Part shown: one piece after another, positions 3,691-53,600 of the stretch
Layout of the letters: the number at the start of each line of letters is the position of its first letter
Position numbering within the stretch: the stretch's first letter is position 1
From: Vitis vinifera
Taxonomy: Eukaryota; Streptophyta; Magnoliopsida; Vitales; Vitaceae
DNA length: 64,000 nt
Direction of reading: 5' to 3'
Assembly (NCBI RefSeq): GCF_030704535.1
Contig: NC_081822.1
Span: 8,784,501-8,848,500, forward strand
The notes under the pieces: model-generated
Seen by the model: only the letters and a program-made list of their open reading frames with translations
Databases searched by the model: none
Told to the model about the DNA's origin: nothing
Position numbers and translations under genes: made by a program

Positions 3691-4640
3691 ATTCATTCTC
3701 ACACCTCTATGAAAATATGCTTACACCTCTAGAACCACCATTTTCTCTTCATCCTTTCTCGAAATCTAATTTCAACTCCATGGTTATTTGTTTTTTGAAC
3801 AACAAACATTGTTGTTGTGCAATCAACAAAGTAGCAAATGCCATGAACATGCTCTTCAAATCCAAATAGGATAGTTTAACCCAGGATAGAAAGAAGTCTT
3901 ACATATTTAGGGCACTCATACACAAGAGAGAAAATTGAAATCGTGAGTAGTATCTGTCCCATCAATTCTATTTTTCTTCTTGAGAGCTACAAATTTCATA
4001 AAGAGGATAATCCTCTTGCAGATATTCCATGGCAATCAATTGTTGGGAACCCTCAGGCTCAAAAAATTTTAACTTCCTTTTCCTTCCTACCATTTATTAT
4101 TGACAATGGCATATCGAACAACTCCTTTTACTCTTTTTGGTTCCTAGCATTTGGTTAAATTATAATTATTATTTTTTTAGTTTCATTATTCTATCACTCC
4201 ATTACTTATCACTTTGCATCCAAGTAATGTATTAAGGAATTCTCACTTGTTCTGTTGTTATCCTTCTAAAGGCATGCAAAACTATTTGAGTTGTTACCAA
4301 TAGGCTACTTTTATATTAGTTGTGTACATTTCCAAACTTACAATTTTTTATCTGATTCTGACTGCTCATGCCAACATTCTAATTGATCCACACTCATCTT
4401 ATGAATGCATGTCTTTGTGATTGATCAATTGTCTATTTTATTGAGCATAGTAACTGAAAGCACCATCCATTTTCATTTCCTTTTCAGAAAATTTTCTGCA
4501 TTTTGTTTGTAATGCATCGTCATACAGGACATAAGGTTCCTAAATCACATCCATCATTGACTAACATTAGGATTCTCCATAGTCAGCAGTTTTACCTGAT
4601 GGGCAACCTTAGTTACTCTAAATGGTTTGCTTCAAGAAGT
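3691..4640. other. No gene seen; probable COQ10 intron or 5' flank
   Basis: AT-rich sequence without a convincing coding exon. The upstream COQ10 exons (transit peptide and start of the START-like domain) were looked for here and not found, so either they lie left of the window or they are too short for me to recognise. Confidence 0.4.
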
Positions 4641-5197
4641 CTGCTGGTCATTAGTCCCCCACCTTGATTATACTTTTCTTTCATCTATCTTTTGGTTCTG
4701 TTTATTTAAAGCATTTCCTCTATGCCTTTTTTCCCCACTTCCTAAGTTCCCTAACTATTTTGTTCTATTTGAATGCTGGAAGCTGGCTATTTTTACTATT
4801 TTCTTTATGCAAAGAAATATTTTCTGTATTCTACTATTTATTCATGCGAAGAAATATTTTCTGAAGCAGATTTCACCCTTAGCCCTTGGGGTGGGGGCCA
4901 GGTCCTCGATCATTGCTGGGTCAGTTGGTGAGTACCCTAGTCTGCTGGTCATTAGTCCCCCAGCTTGATTATACTTTTCTTTCATCTATCTTTTGGTTCT
5001 GTTTATTTAAAGCATTTCCTCTATGCCTTTTTTCCCCACTTCCTAAGTTCCCTAACTATTTTGTTCTATTTGAATGCTTGAAGCTGGCTATTTTTACTAT
5101 TTTCTTTATGCAAAGAAATATTTTCTGTATTCTACTATTTGCAAAGAAATATTTTCTGAAGCAGATTTCATCCTTAGCCCTTGGGGTGGGGGCTAGG
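4641..5197. repeat. Two-copy direct tandem duplication, ~300-bp unit
   Basis: The sequence starting CTGCTGGTCATTAGTCCCCC at 4641 recurs at 4942, giving a 301-bp period. Copy one runs 4641 to about 4903 before a spacer; copy two runs 4942 to about 5197. They are almost identical, except that copy one has a short extra segment near 4840-4850 around a repeated AAGAAATATTTTCTG and a different tail after GCCCTTGGGGTGGGGGC. The pair lies just upstream of the COQ10 exon at 5344, inside the preceding intron. There is no coding signature; open frames across it are chance T-rich frames. Confidence 0.85.
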
Positions 5198-43966: not shown

Positions 43967-44239
43967 AAAAAAATACAATAATTTTATGACATCAATTGAA
44001 AATGATTTTTTTTTAAATATGGTATTTTTAGACTATTTTCACAACACTTTTTATAATGAGTTTAAGGCTAAAATAATACTTTTGAAGAAAAAAAAAAGTT
44101 AGAATAGTGTCCCTCCCAAAATATTTGTTAAAGTAGTCTTTTTTTAATCACGTAATCATCTATGTGGGTTATTTTTTTTAGTGTAAAAAATCACTGTTGG
44201 TGACTCTAGTTTTAAAATCCTAATAATCATAAAATCATA

Positions 44240-44985
44240 GTTATGAACCATGGTTTCAAAAATATCCTTAAAACCATAGTTACGGATTTTAAAATTATTT
44301 TTAAATCTACAAGTGGTTACATATGTATTTTTTTATTTTTTAAATTTTCTTTAAAATCACAGTTATTAACTGTGGTCTTAAAATTATATTTAACAAAAAT
44401 TTTATTTACATTGATTGCTATTTTAAAATTATTTTTTTATTTTATTTTTTCAAAATTTTCTTGAAATTTTGAGAAAATAATTTCACCTACATGTACTCCC
44501 ATAAAATTTTATATATTTATGGTAAATAAGATATTTATTTGTTTTATGAATTTTATCACATATGAATTAAAGAAAAATATTTTAAAATTTATATTTTCAT
44601 ATGAGAATTAAAACTAATGATTATGATTTTAGGTTTTTCCTTATTAAGTGTGATTTGAACTTAGGTTATGGTTAAAATGTATAATTTTTTAATTATATAA
44701 AAGAAAAATTGGTTATGGTTATAACAATTTATTTAGTTAAAATTTCTTTTATTTAGGTCATAAAAGAAACCAAAGTTACTAATTATGGTTTTAAAGAAAA
44801 GTCAATGGTTTTAAGAACATTTTTGAAACAATAATTACTAACTATGGTTTTAAAATTTTGAAAATATTTTTAAAACCACAGTTATTAATTGTGGTTCTAA
44901 AGAAAATTTTAAAATCATAATAGCAGCTATGAAAACTTATAACAAGTATGGTTTATAATATTTTTTGAAATCACAATTAGTATTG
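44240..44985. repeat. Degenerate inverted-motif repeats in foldback centre
   Basis: Variants of ACCA(C/T)AGTTAT(T/G)A(A/C)(T/C)(T/A)(G/A)TGGTTTTAAAA recur at about 44250, 44355, 44775, 44828, 44875 and 44945, often as a small palindrome (for example CACAGTTATTAATTGTGG near 44877). Similar AT-rich motifs occur at 40640-40790 outside the element. This looks like expansion of a hairpin-forming unit, not coding. Confidence 0.55.
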
Positions 44986-46149
44986 TGATTTTATAGTTAT
45001 TAGGATTTTAAAATCACAGTCATTGATGATGATTTTTCACATAAAAAAAAAAAAAAAAAACTCATGATCACGTGACTAGAAAAAATTACTTTGAAAAATA
45101 TTTTGGGAAGGAATCCATTGTCACTGTTTTTTTCTTCCAAAATATTATTTTGGCCTTAAACTCTTTTATAACGGAATTTGAAAGTGTTCTAAATCTTGAA
45201 ATAGTTTAATAAATGTTTTTTCGTTGTAAAATTATAAAGTGGAAGGAGAAGAAAACAAGAAAGAGAAATTAGAATGTAGGAAGAGAATAAAATTGATTTT
45301 CATTAGAGGTATCTCCCTTTTATAGGGAGTCATAAAGAGATATACATCAATATGGATGATCATCCACAAGTTCTCATAATCCGATAAATTCTCATATTTT
45401 ATAACACTCCCCCTTTGATGATCATAAGAATATGCCTCATTAAAACCTTACTAGGAAAAACCTTATAGGAAAAAACCCTAGTGAAGGAAAAAAAGTACAA
45501 TATTCTTTTGGATTACTACCACTGTCTCGTTAAAAACCTTGCCAGTAAAACCCAATGAAACAAAACCTGGACGGAAGAAAAAAGAGTGCAGCCTAGTGAT
45601 GTTCTTATCAATTAGCTCCCCCTCATGTAGACATGATTATATTTTCTCTAGTAGCACAACATGGAGATCTTTGAGTCCGCGTATTCCAATGAGCTTCTTG
45701 AGTATTGCAGTTGATAATGTCTTTGTGAATAGATCTACTAAATTGTCACTTGATCTTATTCATCAAATAACGATTTCATCACTCTTCTGGAGTTAATGAA
45801 AGTAAAAGACTTGGACAATATATGCTTAGTTCTATCACCCTTAATGTATCATTCTTTTAATTTGTGCAATGCATGCAACATTATCTTCAAATAATATTGT
45901 CGGGTCACCTTTGATAGAGGAGAGTCCACATGATTCCCGAATATGTTGGATCATAGATCTTAGTCATTTACATTCACGATTTGCTTCATGAATTACTAGT
46001 ATTTCTGAATGATTTGATGATGTGGTCACAATTGTTTGTTTGACAGATCTCCATGAAATAGCAGTACCATTGTAATTAAACACATACCTTATTTGTGACC
46101 TACTTTTTTGTAGGTCTGAAAGGTATCCTGCATCAGCATATCCAAGAAA

Positions 46150-47126
46150 TTATTGCTTTGATTCCCTTAAGTAAAATAAACTCATATTAGTAGTTCCGCG
46201 AAGATAACACAATATATGTTTAATACCATTCCAATGTCTTCGAGTTGAAGCAGAACTATATCTTGCTAATAAATTGACATAAAAAGCAATGTCCGAATGT
46301 GTACAATTGGCAAGATACATAAGTGCACCAATAGCACTAAGATATGGTACTTCAGAACCAAGTAATTCTTTATCTTTTTCGCAAGGACGAAATGAGTCAT
46401 TTTTCACGTCAAGTGATCTGACAATCATTGGAGAACTCAAAGAATGCGCTTTATCAATATAAAAAAGCTTTAAAACTTTCTTAATGTATGTTGATTGATG
46501 TATTAAAACTCCATTTGAAAATGCTTGATCTGCAAGTTAAGACAAAATTTTGTTTTTCCAAGATCTTTCATCTCAAATTTCTTTTTCAAGTAATTTGTTG
46601 TTTTTGTGAGCTTTTCAAGAGTTCTAATAAGATTTAAGTCATCAACATACACTGCAATAATTGCAAATCCGGTTTATGATTTCTTAATGAAGATGCATGG
46701 ACATATAAGATTATTCATATACCCTTCTTTTAGCAAGTATTCGCTAAGACGATTGTACCACATGCTTCCAGATTGCTTTAATTCATACAAGGATTGTTGT
46801 AACTAGATTGAGTACATGCTACGAAGCTTTGTACAATTCGCTTAAAGCAATTTAAATCCTTCTGGGATTTTCATGTGTATATCATTATCCATGGATCCGT
46901 ATAAATATGTTGTAATAACATCCATGAGACGCATATCTAGTCTTTCTAAGGCTACAAAACTAATTAATAAACGAAATGTGATTGCGTCAATGACGGGAGA
47001 GTATGTTTCCTCGTAGTCAATACCGGGTTTCTGCGAGAAACCTTGTGCTACTAATCGCACTTTATATCTTATGATCTCATTATTCTCATTGCGTTTTTCG
47101 TACAAATACCCATTTGTACCCAACAA
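46150..47126 (-). pseudogene. Copia RT and RNase H remnants
   Basis: 47126-46842 reads RYKVRLVAQGFSQKPGIDYE, then ETYSPVIDAITFRLLISF, the N-terminal RT motif of Copia. 46440-46150 reads VPYLSAIGALMYLANCTHSD, then VNLLARYSSASTRRHWNGIK and ILCYLRGTTNMSL, the region leading into RNase H. Between them the frame is broken and the YVDD segment lies in decayed sequence near 46640 (a VYVDDL-like reading with changes). Not functional. Confidence 0.82.
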
Positions 47127-48609
47127 GTTTTACATCTTTAGGTGTTTGGACTACAGGTCCAAAAACTTCTCATTTTGTTAATGAGTTTTAACTTTGCTTG
47201 TATAACTTCTTTCCATTTTGGCCAATCATTTCTATGTCGGCATCCTTCCACATTTTGTGGTTCAGGATCTTAATCATTTCTTATGATATCGGAGACCACT
47301 TGGAAAGTGAAAATATTGTTAATAATAACATTATTTTGATAACATTTTTCTTCCGTGTATACATAACTTATTGAGATCTCACAATTTTCAGGTACATGTG
47401 CCTCTTCAGGGGCTTTCTACATTATTTGTGTCTCTTTTGGGGCTATAGATTTATCAATTTTAAACTGATCAGTTATTTTTTTATGGCATCTTTTAGAGTG
47501 CCAAGTTTTTCTTGGGTACTCCTCTTCCGGGGAGTTACATCATTTGAGCTGACAGGTCTACCACACTTTAAGCGTATCTTAGATTAATTTGTTAATTATC
47601 CTATAGGGACATCAATCTGTGCTAGAGTATTTGCAGCCGGGATATATGACTTTGTCACTTTCTTTGTATCAATGAATGCATCTGTAATTGATTTGCAAGA
47701 TTTTGCAAATGAGTGATCCTTTGAACTTCTAGTTCACATTGATTTGTGGGGATCAAGATGAGTCAAAGTCAATGCATTCCAAATAATTTTACTCTGTTTT
47801 TCTGAAACTGGCTCTTCTCTCCCTAACGACAAGATAATTGTCTCATTAAAATTATAATTTGCACAACAAGTCATTCTACATTTTAAGTGTATAGATAGAC
47901 TAGTCACTAAATAAAAACTTCTGGTTTTATAATATACATAAATATGATCTTTTACCCTAGGAGACCAAGTTGGTCTTACAAGATTCTTCTGGATCTAGTA
48001 TCGTATAAAGTGTCATTCACATGGAATCAAATACTACTAGTGACATGGTATAAGCTCTTCTGGAGCCTTTAATTAGGTTTCTATCACCTGATATAGTATT
48101 AACATTGTTTGTCATCAATGTTGTGCAATTAATGAGATAAGAGTTTCATCAAAGTAACAAGTCATAAAACATTGTCATAAAGACTTCGTCTTTATAGAGT
48201 TGAATAAATATTATTATAGAGAAAAAGTTAAAATCAATGGAAAAATATTAGTCATTGATGATAATTTAACTTAATAAGTTGTGTAAAAGCAATGAGAGCA
48301 CATATAACACAATAAAACAAATACAAAAAGATAATTTAAAGTTATATATTTCGTAAATATCTCATACATTTGATTTTCTAAGTATGGAGTAATTTATACA
48401 TGAAATAACTAGGAAGTATTTCAATAATCAAACTAATTGTAGTAATGGATCAAGGTATGAGAGAGATTTATGTATCTTCAAGTATAAATAAAGAAAAGAA
48501 TTTAAATGATAAATAATAAAATGTGAAATAAACTATAAAAGATGAACAATGTGTTCAAAGATGATAACAAAATGAACCTATTTGCAAAGAACTAAATAAA
48601 ACATAATGT

Positions 48610-48942
48610 TTAATCATAACAAACATTTCCATCACCAATTAGACGGTCAATTTTCTCATTAGGATTCTCAAAGAAATCTGAAACATCTAAATGGGTTAGA
48701 TCCACTTGGCCATCACTATCAATGAAGTTCATTTCTATTTCTTTTCCTTTTACTTTTATTGATACTTGGTAAAGGTCGACCAAATGTTTGGGCGTACGAC
48801 AGGTTCGCAACCAATGCCCTTTCATACCACATATATAACAATTATTCTCATGGTTCTTAGGAGGTTTATCTTGTAAACACTTCTCATTTTCTTGTTTTAC
48901 CTCAGTATTATTCCACTTCTGGTGGTGCAATGAGGCTTTCAT
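48610..48942 (-). pseudogene. Copia gag C-terminus with zinc knuckle
   Basis: Minus-strand frame of 110 residues reads CYICGMKGHWLRTCRTPKHL, a perfect CX2CX4HX4C nucleic-acid-binding knuckle, followed by the typical LVDLYQVSIK and an acidic tail. Upstream, near 49030-48985, the minus strand encodes an RGRGRGRG stretch, as often precedes the knuckle. Frame continuity with the rest of gag is lost. Confidence 0.85.
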
Positions 48943-49244
48943 TTTTTGAGAATTTGGTGAATTATTGCTATAAGAACTATGGTATAGGGGATTTCTTTCA
49001 TGACCACGACCACGACCACGACCACGTCTTCGTCATCGTCCACGAGTTTGGGACAATATTGCATTCACTTCAGGGAATGATTCAGATCTAGTTGAACAAG
49101 ACTGATGATTTCTCATCAAAACTCATTTTTTATTAAACCTTCATGGAGATGATGACAAAGGAAAATAAGTGTTTTTGCGCAATCTTGCAGGGATGCTTGA
49201 TTTCATTCTTTGATCATAGCTTCAAGATTCATTGACAATTTTGT

Positions 49245-49950
49245 TTTGAATAACTTCTAGTTATACAAGAGAATTATAAATTGTATGCATAACTTCTGTC
49301 TATGAAACTATTGTTAATAAAAATTGTTTCCCATAATTCCTGTTGTAAAAAATAAGTGAGTACAAAATAAAAATTAAAAGCCAATATTTTCATAACTTTG
49401 AATTATGATCATTTTGTTAGAACAAGAAAATATGCAAATTTGTACATAGCTTCAGGCTATGAACTATTTATGTATAACTTCTAGTTATACAATATAATTA
49501 AAAGAAATTAAATAAATTAAAAGTTAACATTTTTCATAACTTTAGGTCATGATTATTTTGTAAGAACAAGAAAATATTTAAATTTGTACATAGCTTCAGA
49601 CTATGAACTGTTTTTTATATAAATTTGTATATAACTTCAGGCTATGAACTATTCATTGTGTATATTTGTGCATAGTTTTAAGTTATAAACTTTCATTATA
49701 TAGATTTATACATAGCTTCAGGCTATGAATATTTATTTATTTATTTTATAGCTTCAGACTATATAATATTGTTTGGTATAACATCCAGTTATACAGTATA
49801 ATTAAAAATTAATAATTAAGGATCATATACATAACTTCTGGTCATATATCCATAATTCTGTAATTTTCCCTATAACTTCTGGTTATAGGAATTACACATA
49901 TTTTTCATTACTTCTACTTATAAATTTACCCCATAACTTCTTATTATAAG
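49245..49950. repeat. About 15 copies of a short imperfect palindrome in the Copia leader/gag region
   Basis: Variants of ATA(A/G)CTTC(T/A)GG(T/C)TAT, an imperfect palindrome of 15-17 bp, occur near 49252, 49289, 49447, 49473, 49537, 49588, 49629, 49672, 49711, 49747, 49780, 49829, 49870, 49904 and 49931. Examples are CATAGCTTCAGGCTATG, TATAACTTCTAGTTATA and TATAACTTCTGGTTATA. Spacers are AT-rich and unequal (about 20-160 bp). The arms covary (ATAGC with GCTAT-like, ATAAC with GTTAT-like), which suggests pairing. The array sits between the 5' LTR and the zinc knuckle on the minus strand. Confidence 0.8.
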
Positions 49951-50695
49951 AATTATACATATTTATGTATTCAAATAAAATAAATGAAAATGGAGATCAA
50001 ATGGTAATAAAATAGAAAATCATGATATAAGTTTATCACATACCTTTTTGTGAGAAAGAAGAAAGAAGATCTTTCTAATTTTTCTGAAGGGAATAAGAAT
50101 AACGTCTTTCTATTTCTCTGAATAGAATAACGTCTTTCTATTTTTCTGAATAAAGAAAAATCTTTCTATTTTTTTTGTAAAGACTACTCGTGTGATAATG
50201 TGTTGTAAAATAATAAAATGAAAGGAGAAAAAAACAAAAAAAAGAAATTAGAATGTAGGAAGAGAATAAAATTGATTTTCATTAGAGGTATCTCCCCTTT
50301 TATAGGGAGTCACAAAGAGATATATATCAATATAAATGACCATTTACAAGTTCTTATAATACAATAAATTCTCATATTTTATAATATTTTTAAAATTATT
50401 GTATTTTTTTCAAAATCCCTCTCATACAATCCATTCCCTAGAGTCCAGACCGCGGCCCATTTGAGCTGCTTAATGTTTTTGCGGTAACGCGGTTATGCTG
50501 GAGCCGAACCGGCGATACTGGGTAACGGTAACTTGCCATGTTTTGAGGGCCCCCTTTCAAAACCCTAAAAAAGTAATCACAACGCTCCAATTTTCAAAAT
50601 TTGAACTAGGCGCCCTTGACATCTCTCCCAGATCTCATCTCCTTCTTTCTCTTAGTTCTCGTTGCCTCTATTAACAAACCACAAATCAATCGAAG

Positions 50696-53600
50696 ATGGG
50701 CGGGGCTCACAGTCGCGAAGATCTGGAGATCTCCGATTCCGAATCTGAAGAAGAAGAAAACTACCAAGACGTTGTAGAAGAAGAAGAAAATGGAGAGAGA
50801 TCTTCAGAGCGGAGAACCAAGACTCCCTCGTCGCTCGACGAAGTCGAAGCCAAGCTCAGAGCCCTTAAGCTCAAGTACCCCTCTCAAAACCACCCAATTC
50901 TCCCTAACGCCGTCAAGCTCTATCTTTACATTGGGGGAAACACACCCAAAGCCAAGTGGGTTACTTCAGAAAAACTCACTTCTTATTCCTTTCTCAAGAC
51001 TTGTGGAAATGGCGGCTCAGACGACGATGAGCAAGATGATGAAGAGGGAGGAGAATCTTGGTGGATTTTGAAGGTTGGTTCCAAGGTTCGAGCCAAGGTG
51101 GCCCTGGAAATGCAATTGAAGACTTTCGGGGACCAGTGTCGCGTTGATTTTGTGTCACAGGGTGTGTGGGCGATGAAGTTCTTTAGTGAAGATGAGTACA
51201 GGAATTTTGTTGGTAAATTTCAGGATTGTTTGTTTGAAAACACGTACGGATTTGAATCAACAGATGCCAACAAGCTTAAGGTTTATGGGAAGGATTTTAT
51301 TGGGTGGGTGAAGCCAGAAGTGGCAGATGATTCCGTATGGGAAGATGCGGAGGATGGTTACTTGAAAAGCCCTGATCCGGCAACTCCTGCGAGAGCAAGT
51401 CAGGATTTGAGGGAAGAGTTTGAGGAGGCTGCCAATGGAGGGGGGATACAAAGTTTGGCATTGGGTGCATTGGACAACAGTTTCTTGGTGAACGATTCTG
51501 GGATTCAGGTTGTAAAGAATTTCAGCCATGGGATTCAGGGGAAAGGTGTATTTGTGAATTTTGATAATGGGAATCGTAGAGGTGGTTTTGGCTTGGAGCA
51601 TTCGACACCAAAAAAGGCTCTTCTTATGAGGGCTGAAACTAATATGCTCCTTATGAGTCCCATGACTGAGGGGAAGCCCCACACAAGGGGGCTTCACCAT
51701 CTTGATATTGAAACTGGGAAGATTGTTACGGAGTGGAAGTTTGAGAAGGATGGGACTGATATTACCATGAGGGATATTACAAATGACAGTAAGGGAGCCC
51801 AGATGGATCCTTCGGGATCCACATTTTTAGGATTAGATGACAACAGGCTCTGTCGGTGGGATATGCGTGATAGAAATGGGATGGTTCAGAATCTATCAGA
51901 TGCTAGTACCCCTGTATTGCATTGGACCCAAGGTCATCAGTTCTCTCGGGGTACCAACTTTCAGTGCTTTGCAACAGCTGGGGATGGATCAATTGTTGTT
52001 GGGTCTATTGACGGGAAGATCCGACTGTATTCAAACAACACTATGAGGCAGGCAAAAACTGCTTTTCCTGGCCTTGGTTCACCTATCACTCATGTGGATG
52101 TTACATTTGACGGGAAGTGGATATTGGGCACAACAGACACCTATTTGATCCTCATCAGCACTCTTTTCATTGACAAAGAAGGAAGGACAAAGACTGGTTT
52201 TGCTGGGCGTATGGGGAATAGAATCTCAGCCCCAAGATTGTTGAAGCTCACTCCTTTGGATTCGCATCTCGCTGGAGTAAACAATAAGTTCCGCGGTGCT
52301 CAGTTTTCGTGGGTATGTTTGCACCTTCTCTTTCTCATATTTACGTTTGCTAGTATTTTTTTTTATTTTTCTTGTTGCCAGCCTGCGGTTTAATGTATTT
52401 CACTATTCATTTCTTGTTTTGGCTATTCACATTGGAAAATAGGGGCTTTCTTGATATATCTTCTTGACCAGATTTGTTGTTGAATTACTCAGTGTTATTA
52501 TAATTTTTGTATTTCTGCTTGATTCCACCTTTTCTCTGATAAGGAATTCTTGGAATATCATTTTTTTTTCACTCTCATTATTATTTGTGCTTTTATTTTC
52601 TTGATTCAGTACGTATTCTTGAGTAGAAGTTTCCTTGCATCAATGACGGTCTTAGGATTTACTCCAATATTTGACTGTTGATTCAATTGCATATTTGCAA
52701 AATTCTAGGCTGCTAACTGTATTTTATGATAAGGTTGGATATTTTGGTGAGTTTATTAAGTAAGATTGCGTTTGATGTGCAAAGATTGTGGATTTATTGC
52801 AAATCTTCCATGTAAGGATGTCTGAGTTTATCTGTTTATGAGAAGCCCACTATGAATTCTTGAAGAAATTTATTAAAAGAGTTAACACAAGAATCATTTT
52901 GTTTACCTATTACTTATATTCTTGAAGAAATATTCCATTGGAGCATAGTTCTTGCATGGCATCCCATTGAAGACCATTGTCCATTGTAAATCAAAGTGAT
53001 GGATTGTTTTCCACCGGGTGGTCCACTCATGGTTCCATTCTTTTAACCTGGGATTTTGACTCTGTGAATGTATCTGAAGTTCATTGTAATTGTATATCTA
53101 AGAAACTTATTTCTTTATGGCCAGATTGGATCAAATATTTTCCATGTAGTACAGCTAACCAGTTGCTTACTTGAGCATTTTGATTGCCTAATAAATGCGT
53201 TGACTTTAAAAATGTGCGAAGTAACTAATATTTTTTATAACCTTGCCATCATGTATGATTTTCAATTGAATGGTGCTTTTTTTTTTAATGGTATTAGACT
53301 GATATTCTAGTGTTTCTCAACCAAAGGGCACTTGTTGAAGCCTGTTTCATTTGTTAACTAGTAACTGTCTCAAATATGGTTGATGAGCTTTCCACAATGT
53401 GTTTTTTGAACTAGAGACGCTAGCAGGATAATGGAGGAAGTTGATTGTTACATTATCAAATCAATCCATGCCTTAATAAAAAAATTAACAAATATCTTTA
53501 ATCCAAAATTTGAAAATTCCATTAAGTTGTTAAAACTTCAAAGTTAATCACATCCATTTTAATTTGAATACCTTTTTTCTTCCATTTTCTTTGGTTTTCA

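Follow-up and report, generated by a model that had tools for sequence, protein, structure and literature searches.

Arrayed imperfect palindromes with covarying arms in the leader of a grapevine Copia retrotransposon lineage

Sixteen related imperfect palindromes with the core ATARC-YNGAA-GYTAT were found at 49250-49947 of a 64,000-nucleotide stretch of Vitis vinifera DNA (the whole of which is called the window below), on the minus strand, which is the sense strand of a decayed Copia element. The reading that we prefer, tentatively and on sequence grounds, is that the genomic RNA carries in its leader a structured RNA element, perhaps one that Gag binds for packaging. In the literature consulted, which did not extend to the Tvv1 papers, neither an array of this sort nor a Copia leader intron of the kind predicted below was found to be described.

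The element is a Ty1/Copia LTR retrotransposon, with direct LTRs, an RVT_2 match and a broken pol. Its parts are as follows, in sense direction.

50201-50386 (approximate ends), minus strand: 5' LTR, 90% identical to the 3' LTR (166/184 aligned)
50188-50199, minus strand: primer-binding-site region, adjoining the 5' LTR; relatives have GTTATCA(A/G)CA here
50040-50049, minus strand: putative splice donor AAAAAG/GTAT, with the junction between 50044 and 50043
49872-49947, minus strand: LTR-proximal hairpins, slots B-D-B (49933-49947, 49907-49921, 49872-49886)
49748-49845, minus strand: hairpins of slots F, C and G (49831-49845, 49778-49792, 49748-49762)
49590-49726, minus strand: four slot-A hairpins of 15 bases each (starts 49712, 49672, 49631, 49590; steps of 40-41 bases)
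49250-49550, minus strand: distal hairpins, slots E, C, A, E, H, C (starts 49536, 49474, 49446, 49392, 49289, 49250)
49100-49240, minus strand: gag N-terminal fragment, fused to the array and nearer to array-less sister copies
48610-49032, minus strand: C-terminal part of gag, with the CCHC zinc knuckle CYICGMKGHW in frame
45964-47994, minus strand: broken pol, with an RVT_2 match within 46842-47129 (1.1e-20)
45222-45406 (approximate ends), minus strand: 3' LTR, with a polypurine tract immediately to its right

TTTTT stands outside both LTRs as a target duplication, which is weak owing to its low complexity. The earlier note's placement of the palindromes in a non-coding Copia leader holds, with the array between the 5' LTR and the gag fragment; it abuts that fragment because the gag N-terminus is deleted in this copy. 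The window's own gag frame gave no Pfam match at 0.001, and Retrotran_gag_2 was above cut-off in a sister locus (L044) and below it in L026. Beside the 3' LTR, and separate from the Copia element, lies a foldback-like element (44055-45166) with outer inverted repeats at 44055-44142 and 45080-45166 (78-90% complementary) that contains several other palindromes of the type ACCACAGTTATTAATTGTGGT. At a distance of about 310 bases from the 5' LTR, and running divergently from the Copia element, begins a frame (50696-51499) that matches Pfam DUF7135 at 2.4e-79 and is probably part of the host's own gene set.

Hairpins were scored as 15-base stretches with at least 11 of 15 positions identical to ATAACCAGAAGTTAT or ATAGCCTGAAGCTAT. 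Between 49200 and 49960, 17 minus-strand stretches passed, and the match at 49216 is probably due to chance, which leaves 16. Dinucleotide shuffles of 49200-49960 gave a mean of 0.61 matches and a maximum of 4 (300 shuffles), so that the array of about 15 palindromes claimed before is real as a set of motif copies. Between these two positions there were 17 matches at 11/15 and 14 at 12/15, against 28 and 4 in the remaining minus strand of the 64 kb. The arms of six of the 16 hairpins form five Watson-Crick pairs, those of seven form four and one G.U (sense), and three form fewer. Symmetry by itself barely exceeded chance in this copy: perfect 5-bp arms around a 5-base loop occurred seven times in 716 bases, where 1000 shuffles gave a mean of 2.6 and a maximum of 9, and pieces of equal length elsewhere in the window held up to 8-9. 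It is therefore motif identity that gives the array its significance here. Rfam returned nothing above the gathering score for 48500-50450; the one hit, SNORD107, reached 21.1 bits where 50 are required.

The genome (495.6 Mb, 21 contigs) held 511 exact matches to ATAACTTCNGGTTAT (262 + 249) and four to the reversed pattern (1 + 3); a two-hairpin pattern was matched 74 times (41 + 33) and its control never (0 + 0). The scan for the motif outside the element, suggested in the earlier note, covered twenty motif clusters from the first 100 places listed. They were fetched as loci of 7-8.5 kb, and blastn matched all 20 to the window element in one or more pieces, some weakly (L019 by integrase pieces only 67-71% identical; L022 and L028). 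The array is also present in other copies, a chain of at least six hairpins occurring in 56 of 74 stretches, which comprised the window, the motif-found loci and the gag-found loci both with and without an array.

Hairpins fall into recurrent slots, the order of which is constant over dozens of copies; hits were chosen by the same 11/15 likeness to two motifs, and slots seen in fewer than four loci were dropped. Gag-bearing copies follow the order (BD)nBFCGA(A)(A)(E) with small departures, slots B and D alternating in variable number with a spacing of 35 and 45 bases in several copies. Gag-deficient copies continue with further blocks, for example CAEHC, QTO and KI(R)LMNP, and the distal array beyond the first E was met only in copies without a full gag. 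The loop is mostly YNGAA and ends in GAA in 25/28 slots, among hits that were preselected by likeness to such motifs.

Pairing between the arms was examined in the flanks, which had not been used in slot selection. Three of the 28 slots were dropped beforehand (not five core pairs; one C.A pair), and the 25 kept were collapsed to 21 flank types. At flank positions -1 to -4, which vary in sequence from one slot to another, 65 of the 84 pairs were paired against a permutation mean of 49.6 (p 2e-5, a value that is optimistic because the slots stem partly from duplication and related slots are not independent). Watson-Crick pairs numbered 57/84 against 36.6 by permutation and A.C pairs 3 against 9.3; positions -5 to -8 of the same 21 types gave no pairing excess. 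With one real sequence per slot (the member nearest the majority of its slot; 25 sequences), 83.2% were paired against 74.3% when shuffled and 27-48% in slid controls, double-change cells numbered 36 against 14.4, and covariation was 0.375 against 0.210. Core positions 4-12 held A-T in 13 of the 25 kept slots, G-C in 10, G.T in 2 and A.C in none, a count that leans to pairing because slots without five core pairs had been removed.

Between slots, then, covarying pairs surround a conserved loop, as in a structured RNA element, and a conserved loop on a covarying stem has the look of an RNA hairpin read by a protein. The compensating arm changes claimed in the earlier note thus exist between hairpins, but for the most part not between copies of one hairpin, where the arms mostly decay independently, as is expected of dead insertions. 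Within slots double changes numbered 66 against 52.1 expected over 72 tests, and a row of 61 members had 6 where about 6.2 were expected; 97 of the 828 hairpin instances were not assignable to slots by flanks alone. Paired switches within slots were seen at core position 4 (slots E and F) and at flank -4 (slot A), all nominal among the 72 tests.

The phylogenetic range of the array was examined through gag. Of 600 candidates from a gag search 150 were scored, and 35 leaders (the best matches and others across the identity range; L039, which is L026, not counted) were read, 13 of them with arrays of at least four hairpins. In a tree of 195 bases from the gag start, 14 rows, namely the 13 array copies and the array-less L090, were separated from 21 array-less rows by a branch found in 100/100, which confines the array to a single lineage; the sister clade, closely related by gag, is without it. 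One related motif, TAAACTTGAAGTTAT, stands at a nearly fixed place in 14 of the 21 array-less gag-found leaders (L043 and L045-L050 at 1164, sense, and 7 of the 13 array-less loci of L057-L070), and L043 and L068 also have TATAATCAAAGTTATACC further on. This single motif is a possible seed of the array.

Such a seed would suit neutral expansion, in which the hairpin is duplicated in tandem, intrastrand template switching at reverse transcription regenerates the palindromes, and the array is without function. We consider this explanation rather doubtful. It agrees with the variable number of alternating B and D slots, with the mostly independent decay of arms within slots and with flank pairs being more often Watson-Crick than G.U. 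Leader length also varies by insertions and deletions in grapevine Noble and, by the account of PMC2576258, in Tvv1; these resemble the present element in being grapevine Copia elements with short LTRs and leaders of variable length between copies, and differ from it in that "hairpin" and "palindrom" are absent from the main text of that paper. Against neutral expansion, the spacers of many slots are unlike each other while core and loop are kept, the slot order is preserved across dozens of copies, and template switching leaves the conserved asymmetric loop unexplained.

Whether the structure is borne by sense RNA was approached through wobble pairs, stem length and folding. Within slots, G.U occupied 206 cells and A.C 140, with 60 and 54 slot-level events; in the flanks G.U fell below the permutation value (8 against 13.0), and the difference G.U minus A.C had p 0.35. 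Stems were longer in sense in 6 cases and in antisense in 2, with 13 ties. Sense-strand wobble was rejected as proof of RNA: the raw counts favoured G.U, but the unpaired spacer shows an equal excess of C>T (C>T and G>A were 0.207 and 0.166 in stems, 0.209 and 0.176 in spacers). A>G and T>C did set stems (0.036 and 0.015) apart from spacers (0.051 and 0.062), but with assignment by flanks only, just position 3 was clearly uneven (33 against 5).

Folding of the minus-strand transcript, also suggested earlier, gave a divided answer. Mean local pairing probability of the hairpins was higher in sense in 12/13 leaders, but isolated hairpins favoured antisense by count, this strand being the more stable in 13/22 slots (sense in 8) and in 251 of 486 instances (sense in 210), with a mean difference of -0.26 that favours sense. 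Whole-leader minimum free energy, taken without shuffles, favoured sense in 8/13 leaders. In the 4/13 leaders folded against 25 shuffles each, z was -3.3 to -10.3 for sense and -2.2 to -5.9 for antisense. Taken together, folding and strand comparisons support a sense RNA weakly.

These strand tests are not decisive against dyad-symmetric DNA sites for a host transcription factor, which would act as an enhancer in the transcribed leader as has been proposed for Sirevirus palindromes; such sites are quite unlikely to account for the array. Many short palindrome copies close to the promoter, and their retention in copies without gag, would be in keeping with them, and there is a precedent in the repeated motifs (RMs) of Sireviruses, where clusters of palindromes are known (PMC2829016). 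According to the part of PMC2829016 consulted, Sirevirus RMs have a CGG-CCG core except in Tnd-1, lie in the LTRs and upstream of env, mark CpG islands in several elements and are interpreted as elements of the DNA; classic Copia is said to lack them. Within the same part, the likeness to the grape array is that both are non-coding sets of short palindromes with conserved arms in Copia elements (8-32 palindromes), one Sirevirus member coming from grapevine. Unlike the Sirevirus RMs described there, the grape array is AT-rich, lies in the 5' leader and has a mostly conserved five-base loop on covarying stems; its core, ATARC-YNGAA-GYTAT, contains no CGG-CCG palindrome of the RM type, and it occupies neither of the RM locations (LTR or upstream of env). 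The core moreover reads either ATAAC or ATAGC, and the flanks vary in sequence yet are mutually complementary, neither of which a sequence-reading dimer needs, and the centre is a conserved asymmetric loop. A host DNA-binding factor, one of the possibilities raised before, thus fits the flanks less well, and RNA structure for packaging, raised with it, would be a reasonable reading.

A putative splice donor and acceptor were found to enclose the array in 12/16 gag-bearing copies, the acceptor just before the gag start codon. Fifteen leaders were searched, of which 12 had both sites and three (L053, L056, L088) lacked one of the two matches; the sixteenth, L026, was judged by reading and has the acceptor and no such donor. 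The donor is AAAAG or AAAAAG (AAAAAT in two copies) before GTATGT or GTATAT, and the acceptor is TTT(C/T)AG directly before ATAATGTCA. The donor stretch was found in 26/41 loci searched, with GT intact in 25/26. In the 12 leaders the predicted intron measures 485-771 nt with 78-81% AT and contains 11-20 ATGs, against 7.7-15.4 in mono-nucleotide shuffles, of which 2-7 per leader lie at hairpin 3' ends. The first exon, from primer-binding site to donor (in three copies, where no primer-binding site was recognised, the 120 bases upstream of the donor were taken), has 0-1 ATG except for four in L052, the donor of which looks spurious. The array thus probably lies inside a leader intron that would be removed from mRNA. 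The intron and its upstream ATGs would also suit a control of splicing or translation, in which the hairpins set the unspliced fraction or block scanning ribosomes on unspliced RNA and Gag is not bound, but this is improbable; the gag-fragment class, without gag start and acceptor, still keeps and extends the array.

Hairpin number was compared with the state of gag. The 16 gag-bearing loci had 4-13 hairpins, the 6 with a gag fragment had 12-19 (the window being counted among them with 16) and the 12 in which no gag was detected had 7-33; two motif-found loci with short gag matches had 6 (L019) and 4 (L020). Gag-deficient copies tend to carry more hairpins, a difference that is biased, and can be explained in part, by discovery, since gag-less copies were motif-found and gag-bearing ones mostly gag-found. 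That gag-deficient copies have kept the array points to a signal acting in cis.

For the packaging reading, the following mechanism may be proposed. The leader of the genomic RNA would carry the hairpin many times over, usually with a stem of 6-9 base pairs and a five-base loop, YNGAA in most cases. Because the array of gag-bearing copies lies in the predicted intron, splicing would remove it from gag mRNA and leave it in unspliced genomic RNA alone, so that the motifs could mark the genomic copy of the element RNA. We infer that the loops, with one exposed G each, would together bind the zinc knuckle of Gag multivalently, and that such binding may serve as a packaging or dimerisation signal. 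Copies that lack gag and keep an often longer array would then behave as parasites on the Gag of another element. The fuller version, in which an intron-borne multivalent packaging signal sorts mRNA from genomic RNA and gag-less parasites compete by multiplying hairpins (up to 33), is unlikely as a whole.

Retroviral packaging signals lie downstream of the major splice donor, as hairpins with exposed G residues that are present only in unspliced RNA, and loop G residues bind the knuckles of NC. Retroviruses use few distinct hairpins, whereas the grape array consists of many repeats of one type. In the present family the signal by which a plant LTR retrotransposon tells packaged from translated RNA may be visible as a countable repeat. 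Should packaging strength depend on hairpin number, copies with and without gag would form a natural dose series, for which the sister clade without the array could readily serve as control. In barley, BARE1 and BARE2 are a Copia pair in which the Gag of one packages the other, gag-deficient subfamily, and BARE has separate RNA pools for translation and replication (PMC3735527). As far as the consulted part of PMC3735527 goes, splicing in BARE takes place within gag and not in the leader, and no hairpin array is described for it.

Identities along the window copy differ by region. Window 47900-48600 is 94% identical to L041 of the array clade and 70-72% identical, over 125 bases, to the sister clade; the gag N-terminal fragment is 86-87% identical to array-less sister copies and 73-76% to two copies of the array clade; the zinc-knuckle part, at 82-85% to both clades, does not discriminate. 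Judged by these identities, the window copy is a mosaic of array-clade and sister-clade-like sequence. Its junction of array and gag fragment is common to L012, L013, L021, L023 and L024, which suggests one recombinant gag-deficient lineage that later transposed. Two further rearrangements were noted. In the gag-bearing L026 a motif-free stretch of about 1.1 kb (about 3987-5065), which looks like an insertion, splits the leader array. L016 and L017, which lie about 26 kb from each other, each hold a pair of oppositely oriented LTR-like stretches (at about 3-5 kb) together with motifs pointing both ways, an inverted or nested arrangement.
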